DNA of 64,000 nucleotides. Source: an uncultured Bacteroidia bacterium. GTDB taxonomy: Bacteria; Bacteroidota; Bacteroidia; Bacteroidales; Prolixibacteraceae. Of this stretch, positions 40,772 through 59,237 are shown piece after piece. A program made the position numbers and the translations under genes. Positions within the stretch are counted from its first letter, which is position 1. Every line of letters begins with the position of its first letter. The DNA lies in NCBI GenBank assembly GCA_903923905.1, contig CAIXZH010000052.1, forward strand, positions 62,001 to 126,000, read 5' to 3'. Under the pieces are notes generated by a model. That model saw nothing but the letters and a program-made list of their open reading frames with translations, made no database searches and was not told the origin of the DNA.

Positions 40772-40906
40772 GGCTAATTTTTTAAGGCAGGTTTTCGATT
40801 GCAAAGATATAAAAATCAACCCGCGGGAATGCAGGCTAACCCTGTTTAATGGTTTTAAGTAATTTGGATTCCTTTATTAGAAATTTTTATTTTTCTTTCA
40901 AAATAA

Positions 40907-40985: not shown

Positions 40986-41798
40986 ATGATTCAGATTAAA
41001 GACCTTCATTTTGCTTATCCACGGCAACAGGCGCTTTTCAACAGCCTCACCGCAGATCTCAGGGCCGGCAGTATTACCGGACTACTGGGAAAGAATGGCG
41101 CCGGGAAAACGAGCCTGCTTAAACTCCTTACAGGACTTCTTCACCCGGTGTCGGGTGAACTCTCGGTGATGAGCCACGCTCCCCGAAAACGGGAAGTTTC
41201 GTTTTTGAACGATGTTTTTATGGTACCCGAGGAATTTTATTTTCCCACAATCTCCATCCTCGATTACCTGAAGGCCTACACCCCGTTTTATCCCAGGTTT
41301 GACCTTGAGCTTTTGGATCGGATCCTTGTCGAATTTGAACTGGGAAAGGAACGAAATTTACAACGTCTCTCCCACGGGCAGAAGAAGAAATTTCTGATTG
41401 CCTTTGCCCTTGCAACCCGATGCCGGCTTCTCGTACTGGATGAACCTACCAATGGTCTGGACATTCCGTCAAAGGCGCTGTTTCGAAAAATCATCGCAGG
41501 TTATCTTGATGAAGACCAATTGGTTATAATTTCTACCCATCAGGTTAAAGACGTTGAAAATCTGATCGATAAAATTATCATTCTCGATAATGGAGAAATA
41601 ATATTTCAGCATACCATCGAGGAAATTTCCCAAAAGGTGTGTTTCGTTTCAGGAACCTCAAAGGATGTTGAAGGGGCAATTTACTGTGAGGCAATACCCG
41701 GCGGTTTCCGGTTAATGATGCCCAATGGACATGCCGAGACGGAAGTCGATATCGAATTACTTTTTAACGCCATTACCAACGGATATAAAATCGGATAA
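40986..41798 (+). CDS. ABC transporter ATP-binding protein (YtrB-like)
   Basis: A 270-residue ATPase. Walker A GKNGAGKT is at residues 35-42, the signature is LSHGQ (instead of LSGGQ) at about 125-129 and Walker B is LLVLDEPTNGLD. It belongs with the short ABC-2 type exporters that accompany GntR/YtrA regulators. The permease gene starts 4 nt after its stop, and the operon continues with the regulator and a GIN-domain protein. Confidence 0.88.
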   Translation: MIQIKDLHFAYPRQQALFNSLTADLRAGSITGLLGKNGAGKTSLLKLLTGLLHPVSGELSVMSHAPRKREVSFLNDVFMVPEEFYFPTISILDYLKAYTPFYPRFDLELLDRILVEFELGKERNLQRLSHGQKKKFLIAFALATRCRLLVLDEPTNGLDIPSKALFRKIIAGYLDEDQLVIISTHQVKDVENLIDKIIILDNGEIIFQHTIEEISQKVCFVSGTSKDVEGAIYCEAIPGGFRLMMPNGHAETEVDIELLFNAITNGYKIG

Positions 41799-41802
41799 AG
41801 CT

Positions 41803-42597
41803 ATGCAAACAAATAATTCATTTTCATTTCACCGGTTGGTGTTATTGTTCAAGCGATCGCTGATTATAAATAAAAAGCGTTTTGCAATCGCCATTTCAGC
41901 CTTTTCGGGAATTCTGTTTATCACTCTGGTCTGGGCTCAGGCATCTGTAAATTTCAGTAATTGGGGAGAGCATGCCTACCTGAGTACCTTTGTTTCAGTA
42001 TTCCTTTCATTGGGAATATCCTATGCCGCTTTCTCGTTTCCGGCATTCCGCTCGAAAGAAAAGAGTATGACCTACCTGATGTTACCGGCATCGGCAGCTG
42101 AAAAATTTGTTTTTGAACTGCTCTCCCGGATAGTGGCTTTTATCATCCTGATGCCCTTACTCTTCTGGGTTATTGCCAATCTCGAAGGGGCGCTGGTTCA
42201 TCACTATTATCCCGAATTGATCAACTATCAGTTATCATTTGGAAAATCGTTGACCGAGGCTACCAAAGATCATGAATTTAATCAGGTTATATTTCTTATC
42301 ATTCAGATGGTTCTCTTCGGATTTATTGCAGCATTTACCGGAGCAAGCCATTTTTCAAAATCACCGCTGTTTAAAACTTTGCTTACCTTTTCGATCATTG
42401 TCATCAGCTATATTTTGTTTTCCCTGTTTTTAGTTAAAGCTTTTGACCTGCTCCAGGGATTATCTGCGGGAAACAAAGGCATGCATTTCAGAGGTAACAC
42501 GGATATGGTAATCATAGTGTTTAAAATCGGATTTACGCTGACTAATTTGGTTCTATTGGCAATTGCCTGGTTCAGTTTAAAAGAGAAGGAGGCCTGA
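41803..42597 (+). CDS. ABC-2-like membrane subunit
   Basis: A 264-residue membrane protein with about six helices, partner of the preceding ATPase. The ATG at 41803 lies 4 nt after that gene's stop and gives a basic N-terminus; an ATG at 41725 would place 26 residues over the ATPase gene and is rejected. No signature motif, but size, helices and operon position fit an ABC-2 type permease. Confidence 0.75.
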   Translation: MQTNNSFSFHRLVLLFKRSLIINKKRFAIAISAFSGILFITLVWAQASVNFSNWGEHAYLSTFVSVFLSLGISYAAFSFPAFRSKEKSMTYLMLPASAAEKFVFELLSRIVAFIILMPLLFWVIANLEGALVHHYYPELINYQLSFGKSLTEATKDHEFNQVIFLIIQMVLFGFIAAFTGASHFSKSPLFKTLLTFSIIVISYILFSLFLVKAFDLLQGLSAGNKGMHFRGNTDMVIIVFKIGFTLTNLVLLAIAWFSLKEKEA

Positions 42598-42599
42598 TT

Positions 42600-42980
42600 A
42601 TGGAATTTAAAAATACCAAAGGAATCTTTCTCCAGATAGCCGACAACATCTCGGAGAAAGTGATGGAGGGGAAATATCCCCCGGGAGAGAAGATCCCGTC
42701 TGTCCGTGATCTGGCCACCGAGATGGGAGTAAATCCCAATACCGTAATGCGTACCTACAGCGAATTGCAGAGCCGGGGAATCATCGACAACAAACGGGGA
42801 GTAGGATATTATGTGAGCAATGAAGCAATCGGTATCATCCGTCAGTGGAAACGGCAGGAGTTCTTCGAAACCGATCTCCCATTGATCGTGAAACAGACCC
42901 GGATCCTGGATATCTCTTTCGAAGATCTAAAACCCTATTTCGAATCTATACTAAATTCAAATCCTCATGAAAACCAGTAA
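42600..42980 (+). CDS. GntR-family transcriptional regulator (YtrA subfamily)
   Basis: A 126-residue regulator with an N-terminal winged helix-turn-helix (residues about 10-75, PSVRDLATEMGVNPNTVMRT and GIIDNKRGVGYYV) and only a short C-terminal dimerisation tail, which is diagnostic of the YtrA subfamily. These usually repress their own ABC-transporter operon. It starts 2 nt after the permease stop and overlaps the next gene by 14 nt. Confidence 0.9.
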   Translation: MEFKNTKGIFLQIADNISEKVMEGKYPPGEKIPSVRDLATEMGVNPNTVMRTYSELQSRGIIDNKRGVGYYVSNEAIGIIRQWKRQEFFETDLPLIVKQTRILDISFEDLKPYFESILNSNPHENQ

Positions 42981-43662
42981 AATTATATTTGTTTCCCTTC
43001 TAAGTACCATCGCTGTTGTAATTCTTGCTTTTTTTATTGATGTGCGTATCTTAGGCCGCCGGGATAATGGAAGCGGGTCCGATTTCAACATAAAAAAGCA
43101 TGAGCTAAAGTTTTTTAAAGTGCTTTACATCTCCAAAAGCATGAATGTTACACTGGTTAAAAACGACTCTACCTTTCTGGAAGTCAACAGTATGAAGGAT
43201 TCCATAGCGCCAAAGGTGAATTTTTCATTGAGGGAGGATACTTTGCGGATTTCGGACTTTGAGAAGACAAACCACCATAATGTTTCGATCAGGATTTATA
43301 CCGGAGATTCATTACGAAGGATTCTTTTGAAAAATGCTGATTTAGCTGTTGAACACTCTAACTTTGGAGCACTTTCACTGGATATGAGTCAAAGTTCAAT
43401 CTGGTTTAACGAGGATGACAAGATTAAATCCCATATCCGACAGTTAAGTATAGTGGCAAATGACCATTCTCATATAAACACCAATTCATTTTATGCCGAT
43501 TCAATCAATATTGTGCTTCGTAATTCGGAAGCGAATCTCGAAACTATTTCGAAGAAGCTGACTGGCTCTTTATCTGATAGTTCCAGGATTCAGGCCAGGC
43601 AGCCTCAGGAGATTTGGCTTAAAAAGGATGGTACGAGCAAGATCAATATTAATGATTATTGA
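42967..43662 (+). CDS. GIN-domain-like (DUF2807) membrane-anchored protein
   Basis: A 231-residue protein with an N-terminal helix (about 6-26) and an extracytoplasmic beta-rich repeat region (about 50-230) rich in short strands of alternating Ser/Asn/Asp, resembling the putative autotransporter-adhesin GIN domain common in Bacteroidota and often placed next to GntR-ABC genes. It overlaps the regulator gene by 14 nt, so it belongs to the operon. Role unknown. Confidence 0.55.
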   Translation: MKTSKIIFVSLLSTIAVVILAFFIDVRILGRRDNGSGSDFNIKKHELKFFKVLYISKSMNVTLVKNDSTFLEVNSMKDSIAPKVNFSLREDTLRISDFEKTNHHNVSIRIYTGDSLRRILLKNADLAVEHSNFGALSLDMSQSSIWFNEDDKIKSHIRQLSIVANDHSHINTNSFYADSINIVLRNSEANLETISKKLTGSLSDSSRIQARQPQEIWLKKDGTSKININDY

Positions 43663-44834: not shown

Positions 44835-47800
44835 ATGAAGGCAATTCACAATATACTGACTGTCTCGAAATACGAGTCAAAAACCCTGTTCCGAAGCTGG
44901 TTTTTCCGAATCTTCTCCATTTTGGCGCTTCTGTTTGTCTTCCTCTACAACCTGGGGACCCAGACCGGTGTCGGCTGGCCCAACGGCGATCTGGTAGCGC
45001 TTCCTTCAATGATTCCGTTTATAAATCTGTATATCATCAATGTTGCCCAGGCCATTATTGCCGTTTTCCTGGCTTCCGATTTTCTCAAACGGGATAAGAA
45101 ACTCGATACCACAGAGGTGATCTACATGCGTTCAATGACCAATACCGACTACGTCATCGGAAAGACCATCGGCAATCTCTGGGTCTTTTTCATGCTGAAT
45201 GTGGTTGCATTGGGCATGGTGGCATTATTTAATATTGCCTCACCTTATAACCAATTCTCCCCGGCTCCTTATTTATACTATTTCCTGCTGATTAGCCTTC
45301 CCACCCTGATTTTTATCCTCGGGTTCTCCTTCTTCCTGATGTCGGTGATCAAAAATCAGGCAGTTACTTTTGTAATCCTGTTGGGATACATTGCAGCAAC
45401 ATTATTCTACCTTCAGAATATCTACCACTATCTTTTTGATTATATGGCATTTCACCTGCCAATGACCTTCTCGGATTTTGTAGGGTTCGGCTTTCTGAAT
45501 GAAATTCTGATCCATCGGGGAATCTATTTTTTCCTTGGGCTGGGTTTTATCGGGTTGACCATTCTGCTGCTTCAACGTCTTCCACAGTCTCCCTTTGTCC
45601 GGAAAACTACCATGCTGTTTAGTATCCTATTTTTGTCTGTCGGGATTGGATTGGGAGTAAAATACATTGAAAAGATCAATGTCAGCGATAGTCACCGCAA
45701 TCAAATGCTTGAGTTAAATAATAAATATTCAGCCAGTCCGATTGCCGAAGTGACAAAGTGCGACCTTGTTCTTGAACACAAAGGAGAAAGAATCAGCGGT
45801 GAAGCCGCCCTGACTCTGACGAATCAGAATCAGAATCCGCTACAGGAGATCATCCTCACTTTGAATCCGGGTCTGGAGATTCAATCCATGAGTGGGGCGA
45901 AATTCAGCCGTGAGTTACAGCTGATTAAAATTACACCGGACGCCCCTTTGCAAAAAGGAGCAGAGTTGAATATCAAGATCTCCTATTCCGGAACAATCGA
46001 CGAAACGTTTTGCTACCTGGACATGAACCGTGACCGGCTGGAGTTATGGCTTCAACGCGGAAATGGAATTGCAGACAAGAAACATGCCTTTCTTAAACCC
46101 GACTATTTGCTACTCACACCTGAAACACGGTGGTATCCAACGGCAGGAATTACCTATTCAACCAAGGGTTTGAAATGGCAGACCATGCAGTTTTCCGAAT
46201 TTCATTTGAAGGTCAGGACCCGGAATGGGTTGAAAGCAATTTCACAGGGGAAGGTAACTGACGAAGGAAACGGGACTTTTGATTTCACCCCTGAGCACCG
46301 GATACCTCAAATTTCGCTTGCTATTGGGAGGTATCAGACGCGTTCAGTAGAAGTGGACGGGGTTACTTTTAACCTGAACTTTCTGGCAGGTCATAATACC
46401 TTTGACCCGTATTTTAAAATTCTTAAAGATTCAATCAAGCCGGTAATCCGGGATCTCCGAAAGAGCTGGGAGGCAAAGGTTCATTTCACCTATCCCTATC
46501 AACGGTTGAATTTAGTGGAGATCCCAGTACAGTTTTGCTCTTTTGATCATGTCTGGAGCGGAGCGGGAGAACAGGTACAACCCGAAACGGTTTATCTGCC
46601 TGAGGGTGGTTTTAAACTTCCAAGTGCAAATTTCGCAGAAGCCAAAAAGAACAATGAGCGGTTTGGAAACCGCGATAACCAGACGACCAGTCCAAGGGAG
46701 AATGAAGAAAATTACCTGAAAAGGTTTGTGAATGATGTGCTTTTAAGCAGTAAATCGGCTCCTCAACGCGGTGGCGGAGGACCCGGAATCCATTTCGGCG
46801 CCCCTGCCCCTACCCAGGAAGAGATCAATCCATATTTCATCTTTCCAGAATATTACACCTTTGTAACCCACCTAAAATCTGAAAATTATCCGATCATAAA
46901 CCGCGCGATTGAGTCCTATTTATCGAAAGCGGCCACTGAAACCGGAAATTCCTTCACACGCTCTTTTACAGGATTATCCGACAACGAGAAGGGGAATATT
47001 GCCCTGCAGGATGCCTCCTTTTCCGACATCCTGGATAACCAGATTGATCCAGACGTGATAAGTAATGTAATTCTTACCAAAAGTGGTTTTCTTTTTGCTC
47101 TGATGAAGGGGGCTGTCGGACCAGATAAATTTGATGAATTTATCCACAAATTCATCGAAACCAAAAGGTATGAGACCTATTCGATTGATATTCTGAATGA
47201 TCAGTTAAAGAGCTCTTTTAAGCTTGATTTGAATCAGTACCTTCCGGACTGGTACAATTCAAAATCACTTCCCGGCTATATTGTGACCAGGGTCAATACC
47301 ATGAAACTGAAAAAGGACGATCAGATTAAAACGATGGTCTCATTCGTGATTACCAATACCGAAACCGTGCCTGGGGCTGTCTCGGTGAGCTTCAGAATGG
47401 GTGGAAGTCAGCGGGGCGGTGGATTCCGGATGCGGGGCGGCGGTGGATCTGATGATAATATTGAAAAAACCGTCCTGATCGAAGGGAAGGTTTCCAAGAG
47501 GATTACTTATCTGTTTAACCGTGAACCCAGGTCGATGACAGTAAATACCTTTGCTTCACATAATATTCCGTCAAGTATCACCCAACAGTTTGGGAAAATC
47601 GAGATTGACGAGAAATTGCAGGCAACAGAAGCCGAAGAGCGTATCGCTTACACCGAGGGGATCGAACCAAATGAAATCATTCTGGATAATGAAGATCCCG
47701 GATTTAAACTGAGTCAACCAAAAAGCACCAGCCTGATTCAACGAATCTTTTTGCCGTCGGAGAATGCCACCGGATCACAAAATACTCCCCAGAGGTCCTT

Positions 47801-48248
47801 CTCGATTAACCTGCGAAAAAATAAGCTTCTCAAGTATAAAGGACTCGTATTCTGGAACCAACCGGTCGAATGGACCCTGACTACCAATGAGCAGTTTTAT
47901 GGGAAACAGATCCGGTCGGCCTATTACCTGAAAGGTGGATCCGGAAACCGGAAGGCAACCTGGAATGTACCGGTAAAAGCGCCCGGATATTATAAAGTAT
48001 ATGCCTTTATCCCAAAAATCAGGGGAGGCTGGGGTGGTGATAACAACAATGAAGAGGACTATCATTTTACAGTATTTCACGATGATGGCCAGGATCGCCA
48101 GGTAGTAAGTATGAAGAACAACGATGGAGGATGGATGGAGATCGGTTCCTATCATTTATCTCCGGATTCTGTCAAGATCGAACTCTCCAATTTATCCAAG
48201 GCCAACACCATTTATGCTGATGCCGTCAAACTCGTTAAATTAAATTAA
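44835..48248 (+). CDS. ABC-2 permease fused to M1-peptidase-like and golvesin-like domains
   Basis: An 1137-residue three-part protein. Residues about 1-285 are an ABC-2 permease with six helices. Residues about 300-830 follow the M1 aminopeptidase fold (strand-rich N-domain, then VPVQFCSFDHVWSGAGEQ in the place of GAMEN), but no HExxH zinc motif exists anywhere, so it should be inactive as a peptidase. A Gly/Arg-rich linker lies near 850-875. Residues about 990-1137 match golvesin-type C-terminal domains (RSAYYLKGGSGNRKATW, GGWMEIGSYHL, YADAVKLVKL), which are normally on secreted proteins. ABC permease/M1 fusions are known in Bacteroidota; the golvesin tail is not usual. It follows its ATPase gene directly. 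Confidence 0.8.
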   Translation: MKAIHNILTVSKYESKTLFRSWFFRIFSILALLFVFLYNLGTQTGVGWPNGDLVALPSMIPFINLYIINVAQAIIAVFLASDFLKRDKKLDTTEVIYMRSMTNTDYVIGKTIGNLWVFFMLNVVALGMVALFNIASPYNQFSPAPYLYYFLLISLPTLIFILGFSFFLMSVIKNQAVTFVILLGYIAATLFYLQNIYHYLFDYMAFHLPMTFSDFVGFGFLNEILIHRGIYFFLGLGFIGLTILLLQRLPQSPFVRKTTMLFSILFLSVGIGLGVKYIEKINVSDSHRNQMLELNNKYSASPIAEVTKCDLVLEHKGERISGEAALTLTNQNQNPLQEIILTLNPGLEIQSMSGAKFSRELQLIKITPDAPLQKGAELNIKISYSGTIDETFCYLDMNRDRLELWLQRGNGIADKKHAFLKPDYLLLTPETRWYPTAGITYSTKGLKWQTMQFSEFHLKVRTRNGLKAISQGKVTDEGNGTFDFTPEHRIPQISLAIGRYQTRSVEVDGVTFNLNFLAGHNTFDPYFKILKDSIKPVIRDLRKSWEAKVHFTYPYQRLNLVEIPVQFCSFDHVWSGAGEQVQPETVYLPEGGFKLPSANFAEAKKNNERFGNRDNQTTSPRENEENYLKRFVNDVLLSSKSAPQRGGGGPGIHFGAPAPTQEEINPYFIFPEYYTFVTHLKSENYPIINRAIESYLSKAATETGNSFTRSFTGLSDNEKGNIALQDASFSDILDNQIDPDVISNVILTKSGFLFALMKGAVGPDKFDEFIHKFIETKRYETYSIDILNDQLKSSFKLDLNQYLPDWYNSKSLPGYIVTRVNTMKLKKDDQIKTMVSFVITNTETVPGAVSVSFRMGGSQRGGGFRMRGGGGSDDNIEKTVLIEGKVSKRITYLFNREPRSMTVNTFASHNIPSSITQQFGKIEIDEKLQATEAEERIAYTEGIEPNEIILDNEDPGFKLSQPKSTSLIQRIFLPSENATGSQNTPQRSFSINLRKNKLLKYKGLVFWNQPVEWTLTTNEQFYGKQIRSAYYLKGGSGNRKATWNVPVKAPGYYKVYAFIPKIRGGWGGDNNNEEDYHFTVFHDDGQDRQVVSMKNNDGGWMEIGSYHLSPDSVKIELSNLSKANTIYADAVKLVKLN

Positions 48249-48264
48249 CAGAACTATTTATCCG

Positions 48265-49764
48265 ATGAAGAAACAGAAATTTTTCCTGATGATGTCATTA
48301 TTTCTCGTATTGATTCAGGTGAAAGCACAACCGATTCTGACGCTTGAACAAGCATTGCAGCATGCCGAAAAGGGGAGCCCAAGTTTACAAAGCTCATTAT
48401 ACAACCTGCAGCGAACCACGGAAACGCTTAATGCACAGCTGGCTGCGCTGAAATCACAGTTCTCACTGAGTTTAAACCCGATCGTCTACAGCAACAGCCG
48501 TCAGTTCGATACCCGGTTTTCGCAATGGTACACCAACCGGAGTTTTGCCCCTTCCGGAACCTTCACGGTTGCCCAGCCAATTCCATTGACTGATGGGGTA
48601 ATATCTCTGGTGAATCAGTTCGGATGGCAGTCTAACCTTTCAAATGCCCAGGGAGTTACCAATGAAAACAAAGCATTTTTCAATAACCTTAACCTGAGTC
48701 TTACCCAGCCGTTATTTACGTACAACAGGACGAAAATGGCCATAAAGAATGTGGAATACGACAATGAAAATGCGATGCTGAGCTACGCCATTCAACGGAT
48801 GACCCTTGAAATGAGTGTGTCACAGTATTTTTATAATGTCTATATGGCGCAGATGAGCCTGACTATCAACCAGGAGGAATTGACAAACACTGAAAAGAGC
48901 TACGAAATCATTAAAAATAAAGTCGACGCGGGACTTACCGCCAAAGAGGAACTCTATCAGGCAGAGGTGAATCTGGCAACGTCAAAATCAGCGGTTGCAT
49001 CGGGTCGTGTTGACCTGGAGAATGCAAAGGATATTTTCAAGCAATATATCGGGATGGATATTTTTGCCGATATCACCGTAATGGCCGATGTGGTGGTAAA
49101 CCCTATTGAGATTGACGGCAAGAAGGCGCTCGAACATGGTTTAGCCAGCAGAATGGAATTAAGACAACGAAAGATCAACATCGAGACCTCCAAGTTAGAC
49201 ATGATCGTGGTGAAATCGTTCAATGAATTCAACGGATCGATGAACCTGTCAATCGGGTTGTCGGGTGATGATCCCACACTTGCAAAGATTTATGATAAGC
49301 CGACACAAAGCCCGCGCTATACCTTAGGTTTTAATATACCTATATTCGACTGGGGCCAGCGGAGAGCGAAAATAAGATCACAGGAGGCTGTCATTAAGAC
49401 CCAGGAACTCAGTCTTTCGGTCCAGGAAACCCAGATTAAGCTCGATATCCGGCAGGCAGTCAGGAGTCTGGGCAATCTGAAAAATCAGATCGAACTGGCA
49501 TTTCAGAACCAAAAAAACTCACAGCTAACTTATGATATCAACCTTGAGCGATACAAAAACGGGGACCTTACCAGTATGGATCTAAACCTGTTTCAGCAAC
49601 AGCTCTCCACCAAGAAAATGGCCTATGCCCAATCGTTGATTAATTATAAAATCGCACTGCTTAACCTGAAAATCGTATCGCTTTACGATTTCAGCACAAA
49701 CCAGCCTGTTATTCCGGAGAAGTTCGTCAAGGAATATAAGGCAGGAAAGATGAAACTTCAATAA
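48265..49764 (+). CDS. TolC-family outer-membrane channel
   Basis: A 499-residue outer-membrane efflux protein with a signal peptide (about 1-21, cleavage after VKA) and two OEP domains (LTLEQALQHAEKGSPSLQSS at the N-terminus; KLDIRQAVRSLGNLKNQIE near 393). It lies 16 nt after the ABC permease gene and is followed by an RND-type adaptor, so it is the exit duct for the locus and is translationally close to the ABC part. Confidence 0.88.
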   Translation: MKKQKFFLMMSLFLVLIQVKAQPILTLEQALQHAEKGSPSLQSSLYNLQRTTETLNAQLAALKSQFSLSLNPIVYSNSRQFDTRFSQWYTNRSFAPSGTFTVAQPIPLTDGVISLVNQFGWQSNLSNAQGVTNENKAFFNNLNLSLTQPLFTYNRTKMAIKNVEYDNENAMLSYAIQRMTLEMSVSQYFYNVYMAQMSLTINQEELTNTEKSYEIIKNKVDAGLTAKEELYQAEVNLATSKSAVASGRVDLENAKDIFKQYIGMDIFADITVMADVVVNPIEIDGKKALEHGLASRMELRQRKINIETSKLDMIVVKSFNEFNGSMNLSIGLSGDDPTLAKIYDKPTQSPRYTLGFNIPIFDWGQRRAKIRSQEAVIKTQELSLSVQETQIKLDIRQAVRSLGNLKNQIELAFQNQKNSQLTYDINLERYKNGDLTSMDLNLFQQQLSTKKMAYAQSLINYKIALLNLKIVSLYDFSTNQPVIPEKFVKEYKAGKMKLQ

Positions 49765-49963
49765 AATATTCCAATACAAGCACAAAAGTAAAATCCAGGT
49801 TTGCCAATCGACCAAAAGAACAAATTTTTTCAAGACAATATCATTAACAAAGAAACAGCCTATTATGAATCAAACATTTACAAAAAGCACTAGCAGGCAC
49901 GGGAATAAGTTAATACGAATCATTCCACAGATTCAGGATCCAACAAATTCACTGAATAGACTG

Positions 49964-51028
49964 ATGCAATCAAAGAAAATGGCTCCCTGGTTAGGGCTGG
50001 TTTTTATCCTGTTTATGGCTTCATGCGGAAATCAGGGTAACCAGGTCAATAATGAGCTTGCCATCCCGGTTTCGGTATCCGATGTGGTTAAAAAACCGAT
50101 TGTTCAATTCATCAGTACAACCGGAACTGCTACAGCCGCCAGCGTGACCACCCTGAGTACGGAGATGGCAGGGATCTATTTCCTGGTTAAAAATCCAAAG
50201 ACCGGCAGTGATTTCAAATTGGGTGATATCGTCGAGAAAGGACAGGTCATTATTCGTCTGGAGAATCCCGAAACAGAAAATACCATTGCCATCAAGACTA
50301 AAAAGCTGAACCTCGACATTTCGGAACTGGAATACCAGAAACAAAAATCGCTTTATGAAAAAGGGGGAGTCACCCTTCGCGAGATGAAAAACTCGGAGGT
50401 CTCCCTGGCCACTGCAAATACCGATTATGAGAACGCGAAAATTCAGCTGGCAAAGATGCAGATCATATCCCCTTTCAGGGGTGCCATTGTCGATTTGCCG
50501 CAAGTCACCAACGGAACCCGCGTGATTCTTGGCGCAGCCGCCGTTACCTTGATGGATTACAGCAAATTACTGATGGAGATCAATTTGCCGGAAAAAAACA
50601 TTACGACGATTCATGTTGGACAGGATGTGGCCATTACCAATTATACGTTGCCTAAGGACACCCTTAAAGCGAAGATCAATGAACTTTCGCCTGTGGTCAG
50701 TACCGAAACCCGCACATTTAAAGGGAGATTGGTGATTGACAACCCAGCCTTAAAGCTTCGCCCGGGGATGTTTGTGAAAGCCGATATCGAGGTGGCCAGA
50801 CGCGACAGTGCAATCGTTATCTCAAAAGAGATTGTTGTTTCGGGTAACCGTGGAAAAACCATTTACATCGTTGAAAAAGGGGTAGCCCGCGAACGAATCA
50901 TCACTACCGGACTTGAAAATGAAACCTCCCTGGAAGTGATTGAGGGGTTAAAAAAGAATGAACGCGTGGTCACCAAAGGTTTCGAAACGCTGCGGAATAA
51001 CTCCAAGGTAAAGATTATTAATCAGTAA
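49964..51028 (+). CDS. RND periplasmic adaptor lipoprotein
   Basis: A 354-residue membrane-fusion protein. The ATG at 49964 puts a lipoprotein signal (LGLVFILFMASC) at the N-terminus; an ATG at 49865 would add 33 polar residues in front of the signal and is less likely. Lipoyl halves (LGDIVEKGQVIIRLENP and MQIISPFRGAIVD), a helical hairpin between them, and the C-terminal beta-barrel/membrane-proximal domains (LRPGMFVKADIEV) are present. It connects the TolC-like channel to the RND pumps encoded next. Confidence 0.85.
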   Translation: MQSKKMAPWLGLVFILFMASCGNQGNQVNNELAIPVSVSDVVKKPIVQFISTTGTATAASVTTLSTEMAGIYFLVKNPKTGSDFKLGDIVEKGQVIIRLENPETENTIAIKTKKLNLDISELEYQKQKSLYEKGGVTLREMKNSEVSLATANTDYENAKIQLAKMQIISPFRGAIVDLPQVTNGTRVILGAAAVTLMDYSKLLMEINLPEKNITTIHVGQDVAITNYTLPKDTLKAKINELSPVVSTETRTFKGRLVIDNPALKLRPGMFVKADIEVARRDSAIVISKEIVVSGNRGKTIYIVEKGVARERIITTGLENETSLEVIEGLKKNERVVTKGFETLRNNSKVKIINQ

Positions 51029-51250: not shown

Positions 51251-51282
51251 TAAGTAAGTTAATCTAAATTTATTCGAGTGAA
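51251..51282 (+). repeat. 32-bp leader repeat A, covering the RND1 start
   Basis: This 32-bp segment (core GTTAATCTAAATTTATTCGA) ends in the GTG start codon and next two bases of the first RND gene. An identical copy sits at 54462-54493 in the same position before the second RND gene. The surrounding sequences and proteins are divergent. Confidence 0.9.
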
Positions 51283-54200
51283 AAAACTGACTTCTTTTGC
51301 AGTCAATTATCCTGTAACCGTATTAATGGCCATTATGGGGATATTGCTCCTTGGGGTGATCTCGTACCAGAAATTAGGGATTGACCTTTTCCCTGACCTG
51401 ACATCTCCAAGGATTTTTGTGGAGATAAAATCGGGCGAGCGACCACCTGAAGAGATGGAAAAGATGTTTATCGAGAAGATCGAGGCGGTAGCCATCCGGC
51501 AGAACGGGGTCATGGAGGTTTCGTCAATTTCACGGACGGGATCAGCACAGGTCACGGTTGAATATGCCTGGAATAAAGATATGGATGAAGCTTTCCTTGA
51601 TCTTCAGAAAGCCCTGACAAGCTTCTCCCAGAATACACTGATCGATGCCCTGACAATAACACAGCTCGATCCGAATACTCAGCCGGTAGTCATTGTCGGA
51701 CTTTCGCACGAGACCATAACCGACATGAACGAGTTGCGCAAGGTTGCCACCAATTATATCCGCAACGAACTGGTTCGTCTGGAGGGGATTGCTGACGTTG
51801 AGCTGTCAGGCGTGGAGGAGAATGAGGTGCGCATTGATACCGATCCTTACAAGCTCGAATCGTTCAATATCACGGTGGATCAACTCTCCCAAAAGATCCA
51901 GGCCTATAACAAGAGTATCTCAGGGGGGACAATCACCGAAAGCGGACTGCAATACGTAGTGAAAGGGGTCAGCCTGCTTCAGCAGAAAGAAGATTTCGAG
52001 AAGCTGATTATCGGATATGCCTCACCAGTTGCAGGTAGCACAACAGCTGAAAAATCGGCCACTTATCTGCGTGACGTTGCCAGTGTCAGTTTTTCAAACA
52101 AGGAACCGGTTAATATAGTCCGGATAAACGGGGTCCGCTGTCTGGCCCTGTCGGTCTATAAAGAGACCCGTTACAATACCGTTAAGGCGGTTGAAGATAT
52201 CCAGAAAGCGCTTGTGAGCATCACCAAGGCACTTCCGGGATACAAATTTACGATGGTTACCAACCAGGGGACATTTATCCGGACAGCCATCGATGAAGTT
52301 CAAAATACGATGATTATCGGAGTCATCCTGGCCATCCTGATCCTCTTCATTTTTCTTAGGAAGATTGGGACGACCCTGATTGTGAGTCTGGCAATTCCTA
52401 TTTCCATCATAGCCACCTTCAACTTAATGTACTTCAACCATCTGTCATTGAATATCATGACCCTTGGAGGGCTAGCCCTGGGGGCCGGAATGCTGGTTGA
52501 CAATGCCATAGTCGTGATGGAGAATATTTTCAGGAATCATGAACTCGGGATGTCAGCCAAGGAAGCAGCTATCGTCGGGACTGCCGAAGTAGGCGGTGCC
52601 ATCACCTCATCAACGCTGACCTCAATAGTGGTATTTCTGCCGATTGTATACATACACGGAGCATCAGGTGAACTGTTTAAGGATCAGGCCTGGACGGTAG
52701 CATTTTCACACTTCTCTTCGCTGTTTGTGGCGATATTCCTGATCCCGATGCTTTACCACCAGTTCTTTAAGAAAAAAGGGATGCAGGCGCCTAAAGGGGC
52801 TAAATTTGCCGGCTATGGAAATTTCATTTCCCGGCTGCTTCCCCACAGGTGGCTAATTACAATCATCTCATTGGTCCTGATGGGGTTATCTTTTCTGCTG
52901 GTTCCTTATATCGGTTCTGAATTTATGCCCAAGAGTGACAGTAAAGAGTTTACCATTAATGTAAAGATGACTGAAGGAACCTCACTTCAACGGACTTCCT
53001 CAGCTATAGGTTCTCTTGAAAAGATGGTGAAGGAGTTATTGGGCGATGAAGTTCAATCAGTATATTCCAGAATTGGTCCATCCACCGGCACAACAACCTC
53101 TGCGACTGCCGTTTATGAAGGAGAAAATACAGCTCAGGTAAAAGTAATCCTCAAACCTGAAGGGAAATATGCGGCATCGCAGGTGACGGCGGCAATTGCC
53201 AGATGGTATGCCGAAAACCCGCAGTTCCAGGTAACCTTTACCCAGGATGAAACAGCCTTGCAAAGTATTCTTGGAACTCAGGATGCCCCGGTTGTAGTGG
53301 AAGTTCGCGGGGCCGACCTTGACGTAATCAAAAAGATCACCAAACAGGTGGAAGCCTCCGTGAAGGATATTCCGGGCCTATATAATATTCAGACCAATAT
53401 GGAGGGAGGTTATCCGGAAATAAATGTCCAGGTTGACCGGTTCAGGGCAGGATCCTATTCGCTGGCTGTGACAGATATTGTGAGCCAGGTGACTGCAAAA
53501 TTAAAAGGGGAAAACGCCGGGCAAATGGATAAAGAGGGTGAGCTGAGGGATATTACCATCTATGTTCCCAAAATTGGGGTAGCCGCACTTGGAGACATGA
53601 TTATTAAAAACGGGACCTCGGTAATCAGGCTTTATGAAGTTGCAAAACTGGAACAAACGGTAGCCCCAACTGAAATTTACAGGCGGAACCAGACCCGGAT
53701 CGGGAAGGTAATGGCTGAACTCGACAAGAACAAGGCGCTGGATAAGGTAATTGCTGACGTTCAGGCCAAAATCGCACCCATCATTCTGCCGGCAGATTAT
53801 TCAATCAAGGTGGCCGGTGAAGAGCAAAAACGACAGGAATCCATGAGCAATCTCCGCTTTGCGCTACTGTTGTCTATCGTATTGGTATACATGGTTATGG
53901 CGAGTCAGTTCGAGTCCCTGATACACCCATTGATCGTGATGTTGACGATTCCGTTTGCTATTGTCGGGACGATCCTCCTCTTTTTTATTCTGGGTCAGAC
54001 TTTCAATATGATGGCACTTATCGGTATAATCATGCTGGGTGGAATCGCGGTAAACGATTCAATCATCCTCATTGACCGGATCAATCAGCTAAGAATGACC
54101 GGAATGGAAAAACGACTGGCCATATCTCTGGGAAGTCAGCAACGGTTGAGACCAATACTCATGACCAGCATCATCACGATTATTGCCTTGTTGCCGCTCA

Positions 54201-54352
54201 CATTCGGATTTGGAGCCAGCACCTCCCTGCGTTCGCCAATGGCCTACGCTGTAATTGGGGGAATGGTTACCAGTACGTTACTGACACTTTTGGTGATCCC
54301 ATGTGTATATGATCTGATGACGAGCAACAAACCGATGAAAAAGGACGAATAA
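51278..54352 (+). CDS. RND efflux transporter (HAE1/AcrB-like)
   Basis: A 1024-residue inner-membrane pump with twelve helices and two large periplasmic loops, normal AcrB-family length. The proton-relay helix 4 reads GAGMLVDNAIVVMEN, with Asp408 but Asn409 where AcrB has a second Asp. GGIAVNDSIILID in helix 10-11 and FPDLTSPRIFVE near the N-terminus are typical. It starts at GTG inside leader repeat A. It belongs to the hybrid RND/ABC locus and may form a hetero-assembly with the RND-ABC fusion encoded next. Confidence 0.9.
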   Translation: MKKLTSFAVNYPVTVLMAIMGILLLGVISYQKLGIDLFPDLTSPRIFVEIKSGERPPEEMEKMFIEKIEAVAIRQNGVMEVSSISRTGSAQVTVEYAWNKDMDEAFLDLQKALTSFSQNTLIDALTITQLDPNTQPVVIVGLSHETITDMNELRKVATNYIRNELVRLEGIADVELSGVEENEVRIDTDPYKLESFNITVDQLSQKIQAYNKSISGGTITESGLQYVVKGVSLLQQKEDFEKLIIGYASPVAGSTTAEKSATYLRDVASVSFSNKEPVNIVRINGVRCLALSVYKETRYNTVKAVEDIQKALVSITKALPGYKFTMVTNQGTFIRTAIDEVQNTMIIGVILAILILFIFLRKIGTTLIVSLAIPISIIATFNLMYFNHLSLNIMTLGGLALGAGMLVDNAIVVMENIFRNHELGMSAKEAAIVGTAEVGGAITSSTLTSIVVFLPIVYIHGASGELFKDQAWTVAFSHFSSLFVAIFLIPMLYHQFFKKKGMQAPKGAKFAGYGNFISRLLPHRWLITIISLVLMGLSFLLVPYIGSEFMPKSDSKEFTINVKMTEGTSLQRTSSAIGSLEKMVKELLGDEVQSVYSRIGPSTGTTTSATAVYEGENTAQVKVILKPEGKYAASQVTAAIARWYAENPQFQVTFTQDETALQSILGTQDAPVVVEVRGADLDVIKKITKQVEASVKDIPGLYNIQTNMEGGYPEINVQVDRFRAGSYSLAVTDIVSQVTAKLKGENAGQMDKEGELRDITIYVPKIGVAALGDMIIKNGTSVIRLYEVAKLEQTVAPTEIYRRNQTRIGKVMAELDKNKALDKVIADVQAKIAPIILPADYSIKVAGEEQKRQESMSNLRFALLLSIVLVYMVMASQFESLIHPLIVMLTIPFAIVGTILLFFILGQTFNMMALIGIIMLGGIAVNDSIILIDRINQLRMTGMEKRLAISLGSQQRLRPILMTSIITIIALLPLTFGFGASTSLRSPMAYAVIGGMVTSTLLTLLVIPCVYDLMTSNKPMKKDE

Positions 54353-54461: not shown

Positions 54462-54493
54462 TAAGTAAGTTAATCTAAATTTATTCGAGTGAA
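54462..54493 (+). repeat. 32-bp leader repeat B, covering the RND2-ABC start
   Basis: Identical to the segment at 51251-51282 over 32 bp, and it likewise includes the GTG start codon (54489) of the downstream RND gene. The match ends two bases after the start codon, where the coding sequences differ. Confidence 0.9.
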
Positions 54494-57400
54494 TTTTATA
54501 ATCAACAGAAAGGTTCTGATCAGCATGCTCTTCCTGGGCTTAAGCCTGATGGGATATTTTTCGTGGAAAAATCTCTCCATGGAGCTGTTTCCCAATGCGG
54601 AACTTCCAATGCTCTACGTGCAGATCACCAGTCAGCTGGAGGTTGATCCCAAATATATGGAGAGCCAGGCGATTGTTCCCCTCGAAGGGGCAATCGGGAC
54701 ACTGCAGGGAATCCAGAACATGGAGTCCACAGCCGAGTCGCGTCAGGGTTCGATCATGGTTGAATTCAACAAGAACATCAATTTTAAATATACCTATCTT
54801 AAAGTTCAGGAAAAGGTCGACGAAATAAAGGCGACACTTCCGGAACAGTTTAAGGTGACGGTGGTTAAGGTTGACCTCAACCAGATGAATAACCAGTTCA
54901 TGCAGCTGCAGGTTCTTGGCGGAGGCGATGTTGACCGTGTGCGGAATATTACCGATCTCAAAATCAAAACCGAATTAGGGAATATAGATGGGATTGCAGG
55001 GGTGAATGTTTTTGGTGGTCATGAGAAATCGGTTGAGATCCAGCTCGATATGGATGTATGCCAGGCCTACCATATCACCGCCGCAACAATCCGGAATAAG
55101 ATCACCCAGAATTACAAGGCCAGGGCCTTTGCCGGAAATGTGTATGAGGCCAATAAAGAATATTTTGTCCAGGTCACCTCCGAATTTGATGACCTCAGTG
55201 AAATCGGAAACCTCGTGATTGCCACCGGCCCGATATTGTTGAAAGATGTGGCAAAAGTCTATTTCGGAACAAAGGAGGAGACTTCTTATTCGAGGGTCAA
55301 CGGGAAAAGTGCCGTATCGATTACCCTGGTCAATGATGCCCAATCGAACCTGATCAAGCTATCTCACAATACACTTGCGGCTATCGACAAACTTAATGAG
55401 ACCCTGGCTTCGAAGGATATCCAGATTAAGGTGCAGAATAATGCGGCCGATACCATGGAGAAAAATCTCGATCAGATAGGTGAACTTGCCTTAATCGGAG
55501 GTCTCCTGGCTATCTTGGTGCTCTGGATTTTCCTGAAGAATTTCCAGCTGGTTTCCATCATTTCACTGGCAATTCCTATCTCGGTTTTAACAGCTTTCAA
55601 TGTTTTTTACGGAGCAAATATCTCCATCAACAGCCTCACCCTGGTGGGAATGGCGCTGGCAGTAGGGATGCTGCTCGATAACAGTGTGGTTGTGCTGGAG
55701 AATATATACCGTTTGCGGGGACTAGGAAAGTCTCCGCGGGAGTCGGTCGTGCAGGGAACAACTGAAGTATGGCGCTCGGTATTTGCTTCTACCCTTTGCA
55801 CGGTTACCGTTTTTCTTCCGTTCATCTTTTCGAGTAATTTCCTGATCACCCTGATTGGAAAGAACGTGGGGGTCTCCATTATTTCGACACTCTCCATCTC
55901 CTTGCTGGTAGCGGTCCTGCTGGTTCCGATGATGGCCTTTTCATTTCTCAAGCGAAAAAACAGTAACAACCTGAGTTTTAATGTTGTTTCAACACGCAAC
56001 AAGCTGGTCCAGGCCTATGTTATGCTGATGAAATACTCGTTGCGAAAGCCGGCGCAAACGATTATCGGGGTATTGATTTTCTTCTTTGTCACGATCTTTC
56101 TCTGTCTGGCGGTGAGTATGAATACGCTTACCCAGGTAGAAACGAATGCTTTCCGGATCAGTGTTACCATGCCGGTGGGCTCCACCATTCAGGCTACGGA
56201 TAAAATAGTGGCGCAGATCGAAAGCCGGATTGATACCATTCCCGAGAAAGAAGATATTACCAGTAATATGCAGTTGGAGAGTGCAACAGTCAATGTACTG
56301 CTCAAGGAAAAATTCAAAAATATCAGGAACAGATCCATTGCCCAGATTCGGGAAGATGTTAAGCGGAGGGTTGCCAATATTCCCGGAGCGGTTATTGACA
56401 TCGCGGATGCCTCCCAAACGACCTCCGGTTCAGGAGGTGGCAGCGGTGGACGACAGAGTAACGGCGGAACCGGGAATATGATGAAATTATTGGGTATCGG
56501 TTCAAACCAGGAACGGATTCTGATCAAAGGACAGGATTTTGATGTGATGAAAAATGTCGCCGGAGACCTTCAATATTATCTCGAATCGCTTGAGTCCATG
56601 AACCAGGTGCGTGTCAGCTATTCAGACAACCGTCCGGAGGTTCACCTGCGGTTCCATCCCCTTTCGATGAATGAGAATGACATCTCTCTGACAAGCGTCC
56701 TTGGAGAACTTAACTCCTTCAGCAAGGAAACCAACACCAATATTAAGTTTAAACAGGGAACCGATGAATATGACATCATCATCAAGGAGATGCCCAAACT
56801 GGGGACCACCCTTGAACAGCAGAAGAAACCGCGAACCATCTATGATCTGCGCACCCTTCCTGTTCCAGATACAAAAGGGGGATTGCACGAGCTTCAAAGT
56901 ATCAGTGAGATTGTTTATTCCTCAGGTGCGGCTAACATAACCAGGGTTAACCGTGAAAAGCAGATCGAAGTGACCTATTCATTTGTCTCGGCAGCCCAGG
57001 ATTCAAAAGATTTGCTGACCACCTACCGGCAAGAGGTCGACAAGGTGGTTGAAAGCTATAAACTGCCAGCAGGTGTTGCAGTGCAGGTGATCCATGAAGA
57101 GGATGAACTGAAAGATTTCTACTTTCTGATCCTGGCAGCCTTCATCCTGATATTTATGATCCTGGCTTCTGTATTTGAGTCACTGACCACCCCTTTCGTG
57201 CTGATGTTCTCAATACCTCTTGCCGCAATCGGCTCTTTTGTCGCCCTGATACTTACCGGGAATACCCTCTTCAGTGCGAATACACTCATCGGGTTCATCA
57301 TCTTAATCGGCATCGTGGTCAATAACGGGATTATCCTCATCGATTATACCAATATTCTCAGGAAGCGGGGATTCCGGACTGAACGGGCATTGATTCTTGC

Positions 57401-59237
57401 GGGAATGTCACGGATTCGTCCGATCCTGATTACAGCAATCGTCACAGTAGTTGCCATGTTTCCGCTTGCAATGGGTGATAACGAGTATGTAGGGGCAATC
57501 GGTGCACCTTTTGCAATCACGGTAATCGGCGGGCTCAGCATGAGCACTTTGTTGACCCTGATTTTTATCCCTACCTTCTACTTCGGCCTTGAAAATGCGG
57601 TTCGCTGGATGAAGGGGTTGTCCGTGAGAACCAAAGCAATACAGTTAGTGATCCTGGTATCAGGCATCTATTTGATCTATATGAGAGTTGATGCCTTCCT
57701 TTGGCAGATGCTCGACCTTATCGCAATCGTCATAGTCATTCCCGGTTCCACCTGGTTTATCATGAATAGCTTACGGAAGGCCAAGGAGACGGTGATCGAT
57801 CCGAATGAACCGATCCATATCACGGTCCAAAACCTGGTAAAGATTTACGACTGGGGCAGCCGTTTCCAGCGGGAGTGGATTGGCAACCGGAATATCCGTG
57901 AACGTGCAGGCCAAATCAAGTATTACCGGCACTGGAAAGACTTCGATGACTTTGCCTGGGAACTGCCTGTCCTCGGATTCCTGTTTTACTTCACTTTCGG
58001 ATACCTGAAGAACGGACTCTACATGTTTATTCTGGCTCATGTTATATTCTTCCTGATGCTCTACCTGTGGGGACCAGTACAACAATATCTTAGTTATAAA
58101 GGTGACCGTGATCAACTGAAATGGCCCGCCAGATTATCCGAATGGGGTTACTCCTTCATTTACTGGGTAGTTCCGCTGATTTTTCTGATCCTTTTTCACC
58201 TGATCTGGAAATCAACCGGCTCTGTAATCATGATTGGTATCCTGTGGTATTTTGCCCTGACTGTCCAGATGACAGCCCATATGCTCTATGATAAAAAAGT
58301 GAATATTGAAAGGCTGCAGGGTCGCTTTGCAGGATCCAGACGGATCTTTTTCAAATTGGTTGAGCAAATGCCGGTAATTGGTCGCAAGCGCGATGCGTTT
58401 AAGGCACTCAAGGGGGTATCGCTGGAGATTGAGACCGGTATGATTGGTTTATTGGGTCCCAACGGGGCCGGTAAATCTACGATGATGCGGGTGATTTGCG
58501 GAATTTATGAGCAAAGCTATGGCAAGGTTTGGATCAATGGAATAGATACCCAGGAAAAAAGGGAAGAATTGCAGGGACTTATCGGCTACCTTCCTCAGGA
58601 ATTCGGGTCATATGAGAATATGTCGGCCTATGAGTTTCTTGATTACCAGGGTATCCTGAAGGGGTTGACTATTCCTTCAGAACGTGCAGCCCGTATTGAA
58701 TATGTACTCTCTTCAGTTCATCTGTGGGATCGGAAGGATGATAAGATCGGTGGATTTTCAGGAGGGATGAAGCAACGAATCGGAATCGCCCAGATCCTGC
58801 TTCACCTGCCACGAATCCTGGTTGTCGACGAACCTACTGCCGGCCTTGATCCGCGTGAACGAATCAGATTCAGAAATCTGCTGGTTGAATTGAGCCGTGA
58901 AAGGGTGGTTATTTTCTCGACGCATATCATCGAAGATATCTCAAGCTCGTGTAACCAGGTTGCCGTGGTCAACCGCGGACAACTTCATTATGCCGGGAAT
59001 CCTGCCAATATGGTGAAACTGGCCGATGGGCTGGTCTGGCAATACACCATTCCTGCCCGCGATTTTGATGCCTTCCCTGCAAAAGACCGGGTGGTACATC
59101 ATATGCGCGACGGCGAAAATATAAAACTGAGGTTCCTTTCTGCCGAAAAGCCATCGGAAGATGCCATTCCTGTAAAACCGGTACTCGAGGAGGCCTATCT
59201 GTGCCTGCTGAAGGGTATTAAAGTGAAGAGGGAGTGA
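54489..59237 (+). CDS. RND transporter fused to a membrane-interrupted ABC ATPase
   Basis: A 1582-residue fusion. Residues about 1-1040 are an RND pump (twelve helices; helix 4 LLDNSVVVLEN with Asp397; helix 10-11 IVVNNGIILIDYTN). Two more helices follow (about 1055-1100). Then an ABC-type first strand, ITVQNLVKIYDW (1111-1122), is cut off from the rest of the ATPase by about 180 residues containing four helices. The ATPase resumes at AFKALKGVSLEI (1303) with Walker A GPNGAGKST (1323-1331), Q-loop YLPQEF, signature FSGGM, Walker B ILVVDEPTAGLDPRER and a switch His in STHI. All ATP motifs are intact. The gene starts at GTG inside leader repeat B. The fusion couples proton- and ATP-driven families in one chain, which I know of no characterised precedent for. 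Confidence 0.9.
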   Translation: MNFIINRKVLISMLFLGLSLMGYFSWKNLSMELFPNAELPMLYVQITSQLEVDPKYMESQAIVPLEGAIGTLQGIQNMESTAESRQGSIMVEFNKNINFKYTYLKVQEKVDEIKATLPEQFKVTVVKVDLNQMNNQFMQLQVLGGGDVDRVRNITDLKIKTELGNIDGIAGVNVFGGHEKSVEIQLDMDVCQAYHITAATIRNKITQNYKARAFAGNVYEANKEYFVQVTSEFDDLSEIGNLVIATGPILLKDVAKVYFGTKEETSYSRVNGKSAVSITLVNDAQSNLIKLSHNTLAAIDKLNETLASKDIQIKVQNNAADTMEKNLDQIGELALIGGLLAILVLWIFLKNFQLVSIISLAIPISVLTAFNVFYGANISINSLTLVGMALAVGMLLDNSVVVLENIYRLRGLGKSPRESVVQGTTEVWRSVFASTLCTVTVFLPFIFSSNFLITLIGKNVGVSIISTLSISLLVAVLLVPMMAFSFLKRKNSNNLSFNVVSTRNKLVQAYVMLMKYSLRKPAQTIIGVLIFFFVTIFLCLAVSMNTLTQVETNAFRISVTMPVGSTIQATDKIVAQIESRIDTIPEKEDITSNMQLESATVNVLLKEKFKNIRNRSIAQIREDVKRRVANIPGAVIDIADASQTTSGSGGGSGGRQSNGGTGNMMKLLGIGSNQERILIKGQDFDVMKNVAGDLQYYLESLESMNQVRVSYSDNRPEVHLRFHPLSMNENDISLTSVLGELNSFSKETNTNIKFKQGTDEYDIIIKEMPKLGTTLEQQKKPRTIYDLRTLPVPDTKGGLHELQSISEIVYSSGAANITRVNREKQIEVTYSFVSAAQDSKDLLTTYRQEVDKVVESYKLPAGVAVQVIHEEDELKDFYFLILAAFILIFMILASVFESLTTPFVLMFSIPLAAIGSFVALILTGNTLFSANTLIGFIILIGIVVNNGIILIDYTNILRKRGFRTERALILAGMSRIRPILITAIVTVVAMFPLAMGDNEYVGAIGAPFAITVIGGLSMSTLLTLIFIPTFYFGLENAVRWMKGLSVRTKAIQLVILVSGIYLIYMRVDAFLWQMLDLIAIVIVIPGSTWFIMNSLRKAKETVIDPNEPIHITVQNLVKIYDWGSRFQREWIGNRNIRERAGQIKYYRHWKDFDDFAWELPVLGFLFYFTFGYLKNGLYMFILAHVIFFLMLYLWGPVQQYLSYKGDRDQLKWPARLSEWGYSFIYWVVPLIFLILFHLIWKSTGSVIMIGILWYFALTVQMTAHMLYDKKVNIERLQGRFAGSRRIFFKLVEQMPVIGRKRDAFKALKGVSLEIETGMIGLLGPNGAGKSTMMRVICGIYEQSYGKVWINGIDTQEKREELQGLIGYLPQEFGSYENMSAYEFLDYQGILKGLTIPSERAARIEYVLSSVHLWDRKDDKIGGFSGGMKQRIGIAQILLHLPRILVVDEPTAGLDPRERIRFRNLLVELSRERVVIFSTHIIEDISSSCNQVAVVNRGQLHYAGNPANMVKLADGLVWQYTIPARDFDAFPAKDRVVHHMRDGENIKLRFLSAEKPSEDAIPVKPVLEEAYLCLLKGIKVKRE

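Follow-up and report, generated by a model that had tools for sequence, protein, structure and literature searches.

Results

An RND Permease and an ABC ATPase in One Chain

The window examined here, 64,000 nucleotides of contig CAIXZH010000052.1 (positions 62,001 to 126,000) from an uncultured bacterium of the Prolixibacteraceae (assembly GCA_903923905.1), carries a unit of seven genes on one strand, the sixth of which encodes a polypeptide that joins a resistance-nodulation-division (RND) permease to an ATP-binding cassette (ABC) ATPase (Table 1). The genome comprises 5.41 Mb in 119 contigs, and its closest named relatives in our scan are Prolixibacteraceae and other Bacteroidota. The N-terminal part of the chain, residues 2-1032, is matched by Pfam ACR_tran (E 2.4e-159; profile positions 3-1018 of 1021) and is a full-length RND permease domain; ABC_tran is found in the same chain at residues 1307-1451 (E 4.2e-29). 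The single open reading frame and these two matches confirm what the sequence-only reading of this DNA had proposed, that a complete RND pump and an ABC ATPase share one polypeptide.

Species genomes were scanned with the C-terminal 544 residues of the fusion; 102 relatives were found and the best 80 were kept as loci. In 64 of these 80 the fusion is a complete open reading frame of 1,569-1,741 codons, and one copy (L055) is carried by the complete chromosome of Draconibacterium orientale FH5T. Fourteen of the other 16 loci start at a contig end, and two (L080 and L088) are broken by frame changes. A search with the C-terminus alone could also have found a stand-alone gene; it returned the fusion in 64 of the 66 loci that are uncut at their 5′ end, the other two being the frame-broken ones. 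An assembly join or a frameshift, for which positions near 57.8 and 58.4 kb had been named as candidates, would do away with the fusion. Apart from the fact that this genome is a multi-contig assembly, we found nothing in favour of an artefact, and the relatives that carry the whole fusion in one frame, one of them in a complete chromosome, reduce its probability to a negligible level.

A Nucleotide-Binding Domain Apparently Split by Membrane Helices

The C-terminal alignment comprises 79 sequences, the window's and those of 78 of the 80 loci (L083 and L115 are too short). The A-loop Tyr, Q-loop Gln, signature SGG, Walker B DE, D-loop Asp and H-loop His are each present in all 79 and the Walker A Lys in 78, so that the ATP motifs are intact, as had been claimed. 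Their spacing is unusual. In ABC1, the free-standing ATPase encoded by the first gene of the unit, 27 residues separate the first-strand motif LNKVY from Walker A; in the fusion the corresponding motif, LVKIY, is 207 residues away, and four hydrophobic segments lie between, which bears out the sequence-only description of a first strand, about 180 residues with four helices, and only then the rest of the ATPase. No contiguous nucleotide-binding domain was found in any of 116 members compared after removal of identical C-termini: the distance from strand motif to Walker A is 135-251 residues throughout, falling at 189-207 in 112 members, at 234 in one, at 251 in one and at 135 in two (L134 and L135), with none near 27.

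Several observations suggest that the isolated element, residues 1111-1120, is the first strand of the ATPase. We built a position profile of the beta-1 strand and A-loop from the free-standing ATPases of the window and of 27 relatives, 28 sequences in all, and slid it along whole fusion chains. In the window protein residues 1111-1120 score 17.4 bits, the runner-up in the chain as a whole reaching 10.8 and the runner-up within the linker 1.3; in 28 of 28 relatives the same element outscores every other window of the chain. Four positions, I1111, V1117, K1118 and the A-loop Y1120, do not vary among the 79 C-terminal sequences. An AlphaFold model of residues 1025-1582 (46 sequences; best of five models, mean pLDDT 79.6, pTM 0.56) gives 1111-1120 as a 10-residue strand, with block pLDDT values of 85 and 68. 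Since the remaining strands of that model all lie within the ATPase or its C-terminal extension, 1111-1120 must, by the DSSP definition of a strand, pair with one of these; the partner is probably 1304-1314, as in ordinary ABC ATPases. Among the top 50 Foldseek matches listed for the model ABC ATPases dominate, the listing not stating whether the first strand was aligned.

It might be argued instead that 1111-1120 is an unrelated conserved cytoplasmic segment and that the ATPase simply has no first strand. A second AlphaFold run, on residues 505-1582, could be cited for this view, as it gives a strand of just 4 residues with block pLDDT of 37-49 around it, and in the better model the C-terminal extension might conceivably supply the strand with which 1111-1120 pairs. 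With a mean pLDDT of 61.5, the larger model is too poor to support or refute a split, and we consider the view very unlikely given the margin of the profile score, its recurrence in every relative tested, the invariant A-loop Tyr and the 10-residue strand of the better model. The split proposed in the sequence-only reading is therefore supported by profile scoring, invariance, a fair model and two relatives with short inserts (below); of the structural expectation attached to it, the part that holds is that 1111-1120 is predicted as a strand pairing within the ATPase or its C-terminal extension, the exact partner being the likely one named above.

The Inserted Segment

The predicted topology places two helices before the strand and four after it. 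The two before it (about 1046-1066 and 1070-1095), between TM12 of the RND domain and the strand, had gone unmentioned in the sequence-only reading; the four inserted segments lie at about 1158-1173, 1178-1199, 1222-1239 and 1244-1264. By a simple hydropathy count, 101 of the 116 members have four inserted segments, 12 have three and one has five; the pair with short inserts score two and one. In that pair (L134 and L135, from genomes G272 and G078) the insert is about 70 residues shorter and apparently has two helices, two hydrophobic stretches being visible by eye in both; loss of one hairpin would leave the strand and the ATPase on the same side of the membrane, as a split domain requires. 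In two other genomes, G105 (L124/L132) and G223 (L133), the insert is lengthened by a low-complexity stretch that is rich in acidic residues and Ser or in Gly/Ser/Arg and precedes the first inserted helix, after the A-loop segment.

Charges were counted in 46 sequences with segment borders drawn by hand. The three longer segments expected to be cytoplasmic, of 64, 22 and 39 residues, have averages of 15.0, 4.5 and 10.5 Lys and Arg, or about 0.2-0.3 per residue. For the periplasmic turns, which at 3-4 residues are too small to allow a strong test, the averages are 0.2-0.6, or about 0.05-0.15 per residue. The short segment of 12 residues behind TM12 has just 0.8. The window's residues between the two domains match nothing in Pfam beyond E 5, and 46 members gave scattered weak matches, the best at E 0.0013. 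Against solved structures the insert found only two engineered chains (E 0.045 and 0.074), neither of them credible. We also considered whether the two and four helices might together form a hidden six-helix ABC-2 membrane domain, and rejected the idea when profile comparison with both permeases of the operon gave only short matches of 19-20 columns.

A Unit of Seven Genes

The order of the unit is ABC1, ABC2M1, TolC, adaptor, RND1, RND-ABC, ABC2b; the sequence-only reading had not described the rest of this unit, to which a second ATPase and a second permease belong. The order is intact, with all genes on one strand, in 27 of 29 wide stretches fetched from genomes with a match to the linker, a second sample drawn partly from the same genomes as the 80 loci. 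One exception (L166) is a contig that ends inside ABC2M1; the other (L147) surrounds a weak linker match (E 4.9e-4, genome G500) and has none of the seven genes. Among the 80 loci, RND1 lies upstream of the fusion in all 65 that have more than 300 bases there, and ABC2b lies downstream in 75. Of the five loci in which ABC2b was not called, four end within 300 bases, and L067 continues for 676 bases past the fusion; in L070 the distance from the fusion to the start of ABC2b is about 650 bases.

Distribution was surveyed in 295 genomes of the same order, 395 drawn from the phylum and 395 drawn from the class, the draws overlapping. The linker is matched in 41 genomes of the order, one of them weakly (G239, E 4.8e-4; 65% complete and without a profile match at the strict limit of E <= 1e-60), and in seven genomes of the phylum, one of which is the weak G500; a C-terminal profile at E <= 1e-110 matched in five genomes of the class. 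The unit was found in about one in seven of the sampled genomes of the order. A search of plasmid records gave no match. Two loci come from metagenome-assembled genomes labelled Calditrichota (L114, on a contig of 3,181 bases) and Actinomycetota (L111, 12,345 bases), labels that are open to mis-binning.

At E <= 1e-6 an ABC2b profile matches 40 of the 295 genomes, and these are exactly the genomes with a strong linker match, the 41 less G239. A profile of the ABC2M1 membrane region matches 42, sharing 37 with the fusion genomes, missing three and adding five. In the three missed (G011, G262 and G282) the fusion match lies within about 2.4 kb of the contig's upstream end. The five that have ABC2M1 without a fusion match (G014, G136, G182, G187 and G276) were rejected as counter-examples because the unit runs off the contig end in every one.

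The fused and the free ATPases form one clade each. Their distances are correlated over 27 genomes (Mantel r 0.78, a value reached in 0 of 2000 permutations), as would be expected if the unit were inherited together and as species relatedness alone can also give. For outgroups to the ATPase tree, 16 stretches of the window's own genome were fetched; five rows passed the motif filter, of which four have long branches, and the filter removed the second-best paralogue (contig 14), among others; we make no claim that fused and free ATPases are sisters.

Upstream of the unit, at 40986-43659, lie an ABC ATPase, a membrane protein, a short GntR-type regulator and a 231-residue protein with no Pfam match. 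The regulator is not counted in the unit because it was matched in just two of the 29 stretches (L156 and L158), many of which have little upstream sequence. Farther out, at 39689-40819 on the reverse strand, a 375-residue protein of this Bacteroidota genome matches Pfam Tic110, a chloroplast envelope transporter (E 1.5e-13).

Table 1. Genes of the unit and parts of the RND-ABC fusion (window coordinates)
Feature	Position	Strand	Basis
ABC1, free-standing ABC-2-type ATPase, 298 aa	43878..44774	+	ABC_tran E 4.2e-31; first gene in 27/29 stretches
ABC2M1, 1137 aa: N-terminal ABC-2-like membrane domain, M1-peptidase-like region, Golvesin_C	44835..48248	+	
TolC-family outer membrane channel	48265..49764	+	NCBIfam type_I_sec_TolC E 1.1e-21, below curated cut-off; 28/29 stretches
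Periplasmic adaptor (HlyD_D23)	49865..51028	+	HlyD_D23 E 4.4e-23; 28/29 stretches
RND1, RND permease of ordinary length, without ATPase	51278..54352	+	ACR_tran E 7.2e-215; 28/29 stretches
RND-ABC fusion, 1,582 aa	54489..59237	+	GTG start, no internal stop; complete single open reading frame in 64/80 relatives
RND permease domain, residues 1-1035	54489..57593	+	Pfam ACR_tran 2-1032
Two predicted extra helices TM13 and TM14, residues ~1046-1095	57624..57773	+	AlphaFold model helices 22-42, 46-71; hydropathy
Predicted ABC beta-1 and A-loop, ITVQNLVKIY, residues 1111-1120	57819..57848	+	Profile top window; model strand; invariant Y1120
Insert, residues 1121-1300: basic conserved segment and four predicted TM segments	57849..58388	+	Walker A distance, hydropathy, charges
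Remaining ABC ATPase, residues 1301-1512	58389..59024	+	ABC_tran 1307-1451; motifs conserved
C-terminal extension with conserved P.LE.AYL, residues 1513-1582	59025..59234	+	Nearly invariant alignment columns
ABC2b, small ABC-2-like permease, 252 aa	59476..60234	+	Same 40/295 genomes as strong fusion matches

Partner Proteins

ABC1 is the best ABC match of the fused ATPase in its own genome, with 41% identity. Among 28 members of ABC2M1, Pfam finds Golvesin_C in 28, ABC2_membrane_2 in 21 and Peptidase_M1 in 15, and the ABC2M1 profile matches a solved M1 enzyme (E 5.5e-5). The zinc motif of M1 aminopeptidases, HExxH, is absent from 27 of the 28, the sole instance being HETKH at position 884 of the L164 chain, and the M1-like and Golvesin_C domains look non-catalytic. 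The partners of an RND permease, an adaptor and an outer membrane channel, are encoded in 28 of the 29 stretches, L147 having neither. As for ABC2b, Pfam matches among 29 members are few (ABC2_membrane_3 in five and ABC2_membrane_2 in two, best E 1.3e-4), and the window's own protein has none. The gene that follows the fusion is conserved, and its product is weakly ABC-2-like.

The Proton Relay

Relay positions were placed through an alignment with MdtB and are given in AcrB numbering. Among 66 fusion sequences the equivalent of D407 is Asp in all, the equivalent of D408 is Asn in 65, and K940 is replaced by Asn in 65 and by Ser in one; R971 and T978 are kept in 65, with one gap. In RND1, counted over 58 sequences from open frames of 980-1080 codons only, the first TM4 Asp is present in all 58, the second position is Asn in 50 and Asp in eight, and the TM10 position is Asn in 50 and Ser in eight. 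Thirteen further RND proteins were fetched from this genome; eight have the D-D pair and five a single Asp. The relay of AcrB consists of D407, D408 and K940 with R971 and T978 (PMC8277102). By these residues the fusion is an RND-fold protein outside the AcrB-like HAE-1 type; proton coupling of the two RND proteins is plausible, in a form other than that of AcrB. The same genome has two further long RND open frames, of 1134 codons (L207, G000 contig 88) and 1394 codons (L215, G000 contig 85).

Discussion

Relation to Known Transporters

The nearest parallel to the RND half of the unit is MdtABC, which likewise combines full ACR_tran permeases, an adaptor and TolC and sets two different RND proteins side by side; by sequence, MdtB is the best solved relative. 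MdtBC is described as forming heterotrimers (PMC8277102). The unit differs from MdtABC in that one RND protein carries six extra helices and an ABC ATPase and in that the AcrB relay is reduced. The ATPase half resembles ABC-2-type ATPases (DrrA, GldA, NosF, ABCA), which share its ATP motifs and provide its best NCBIfam and Protein Data Bank matches, but in the fusion the first strand lies about 180 residues away across membrane helices and the whole is attached to an RND protein. Its scores are below the curated cut-offs, at 174.7 of 402.6 bits for GldA (TIGR03522) and 160.4 of 312.45 for DrrA, and on that basis it would not be classed with the GldA gliding ATPases. ABCA transporters, which have a role in lipid transport, lead the list of its solved relatives.

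MacAB-TolC also couples an ATP-driven step to an adaptor and TolC, but it has its ABC part in one protein of another type, MacB, and has no RND protein; here ABC and RND parts share a polypeptide. Interruption of an ABC-type ATPase by a large insertion has a precedent in SMC and Rad50, whose coiled coil breaks the fold elsewhere; in the fusion, membrane helices would follow the first strand and A-loop. We found no description of an RND-ABC fusion in the open literature, a coverage outside which most subscription papers and preprints fall, and the architecture may be present, uncommented, in sequence databases. Although every single part belongs to a known kind, their covalent combination, the split of the ATPase by membrane helices and the fixed unit of seven genes appear, within that coverage, to be undescribed.

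A Model and Its Rivals

Gene content, gene order, the fusion and the split of the ATPase are supported by the data above. We infer from them how the proteins might work together, that is, how the ATPases pair, how the small permease docks through the inserted helices, what the cargo is and how the energetic steps are coupled. The seven genes probably encode one envelope-spanning export machine, in which a heteromeric ABC-2 exporter is tethered to a tripartite RND pump, and we favour this arrangement because it is the simplest that uses every conserved part. The fused ATPase and free ABC1 would form one asymmetric dimer that drives two ABC-2-like membrane domains, that of ABC2M1 and ABC2b, and the ATP-powered step would deliver to the periplasmic face, by movement or extraction, a cargo that may be lipid-like, a glycan or a peptide, perhaps helped by the M1-like and Golvesin_C domains. 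The common occurrence of fusion and ABC2b in 40 of the 295 genomes lends indirect support to docking of the small permease on the fusion, an idea raised in the sequence-only reading; the inserted helices may hold the ATPase against the flank of the RND part and might serve as the surface on which that permease docks. The ATP-powered step would sit beside the periplasmic entrance of an RND heterotrimer, which would pass the cargo onward through the adaptor and TolC. MdtB and MdtC combine in a ratio of 2:1; were RND1 and RND-ABC to do the same, there would be exactly one ABC transporter per pump. The ABCA-led relatives and Golvesin_C hint, as a lead only, at an amphiphilic or glycan-bearing cargo.

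Several observations weigh against such a machine. The contacts among its members are putative. ABC2b is only weakly ABC-2-like, with ABC2_membrane_3 in five of 29 members, and an hhalign comparison with the ABC2M1 membrane domain was not significant (169 columns, probability 0.8%, E 0.069). Profile comparison relates the insert to neither operon permease. Both RND proteins are without the TM10 Lys of AcrB and mostly without the second TM4 Asp, which makes their proton coupling uncertain. In addition, the ABC2M1 permease type exists outside the unit too: ABC2M1-like genes in two genomes (L197, L198 and L199 in G178, L201 in G290) have no ABC1, RND or ABC2b gene in the fetched stretch.

The main rivals to a tethered exporter working with the pump are that the fusion is a tether only and that ATP gates the RND protein directly. 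In the former case the fusion would fix location and stoichiometry while the RND pump and the ABC exporter act independently on the same or related cargo, with ATP hydrolysis outside the RND cycle. Both halves keep near-complete machinery and the other members of the operon are separate chains, as independence would predict; yet the ATPase is joined by several helices instead of one plain flexible linker, and wherever the 5′ end of the locus is uncut the C-terminal search led to the fusion or to a frame-broken copy of it, so that we regard a mere tether as unlikely, if worth keeping in mind. Direct action of the fused ATPase on the RND trimer, gating it or partly replacing the proton motive force with the other ABC parts as accessories, would accord with the reduction of the AcrB triad in both RND proteins and with the retention of D-D in most other RND proteins of the genome. 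RND1, which has no ATPase, shows that reduction as well; the first TM4 Asp is invariant in both proteins and the TM11 Arg and Thr nearly so; the other RND proteins of the genome that lack D-D also have a single Asp; and a dedicated small permease is left unexplained. We consider direct gating distinctly improbable. A stronger form of the tethered-exporter model, in which the membrane-knitted ATPase dimerises with the free ATPase, drives the ABC-2 exporter and dictates, by way of its inserted helices, the phase in which the RND trimer cycles, would couple ATP hydrolysis and RND cycling mechanically within one envelope-spanning machine. It would define a class of transporters that unite a proton-type pump and an ATP motor in a single polypeptide, a speculation that we rate as doubtful.

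Implications

Transporter classification keeps RND pumps, normally driven by protons, apart from ABC exporters, which use another source of energy, and a conserved fusion of the two is a natural covalent link between them. In combination with its fixed gene neighbours, the fusion suggests one export machine with two energy sources, and the conserved chain and its seven-gene unit make coupling of an ATP step to an RND step directly testable. In a larger context, the fusion suggests that an ABC ATPase fold can accommodate membrane helices that part the first strand from the remainder, which bears on how such domains are assembled.

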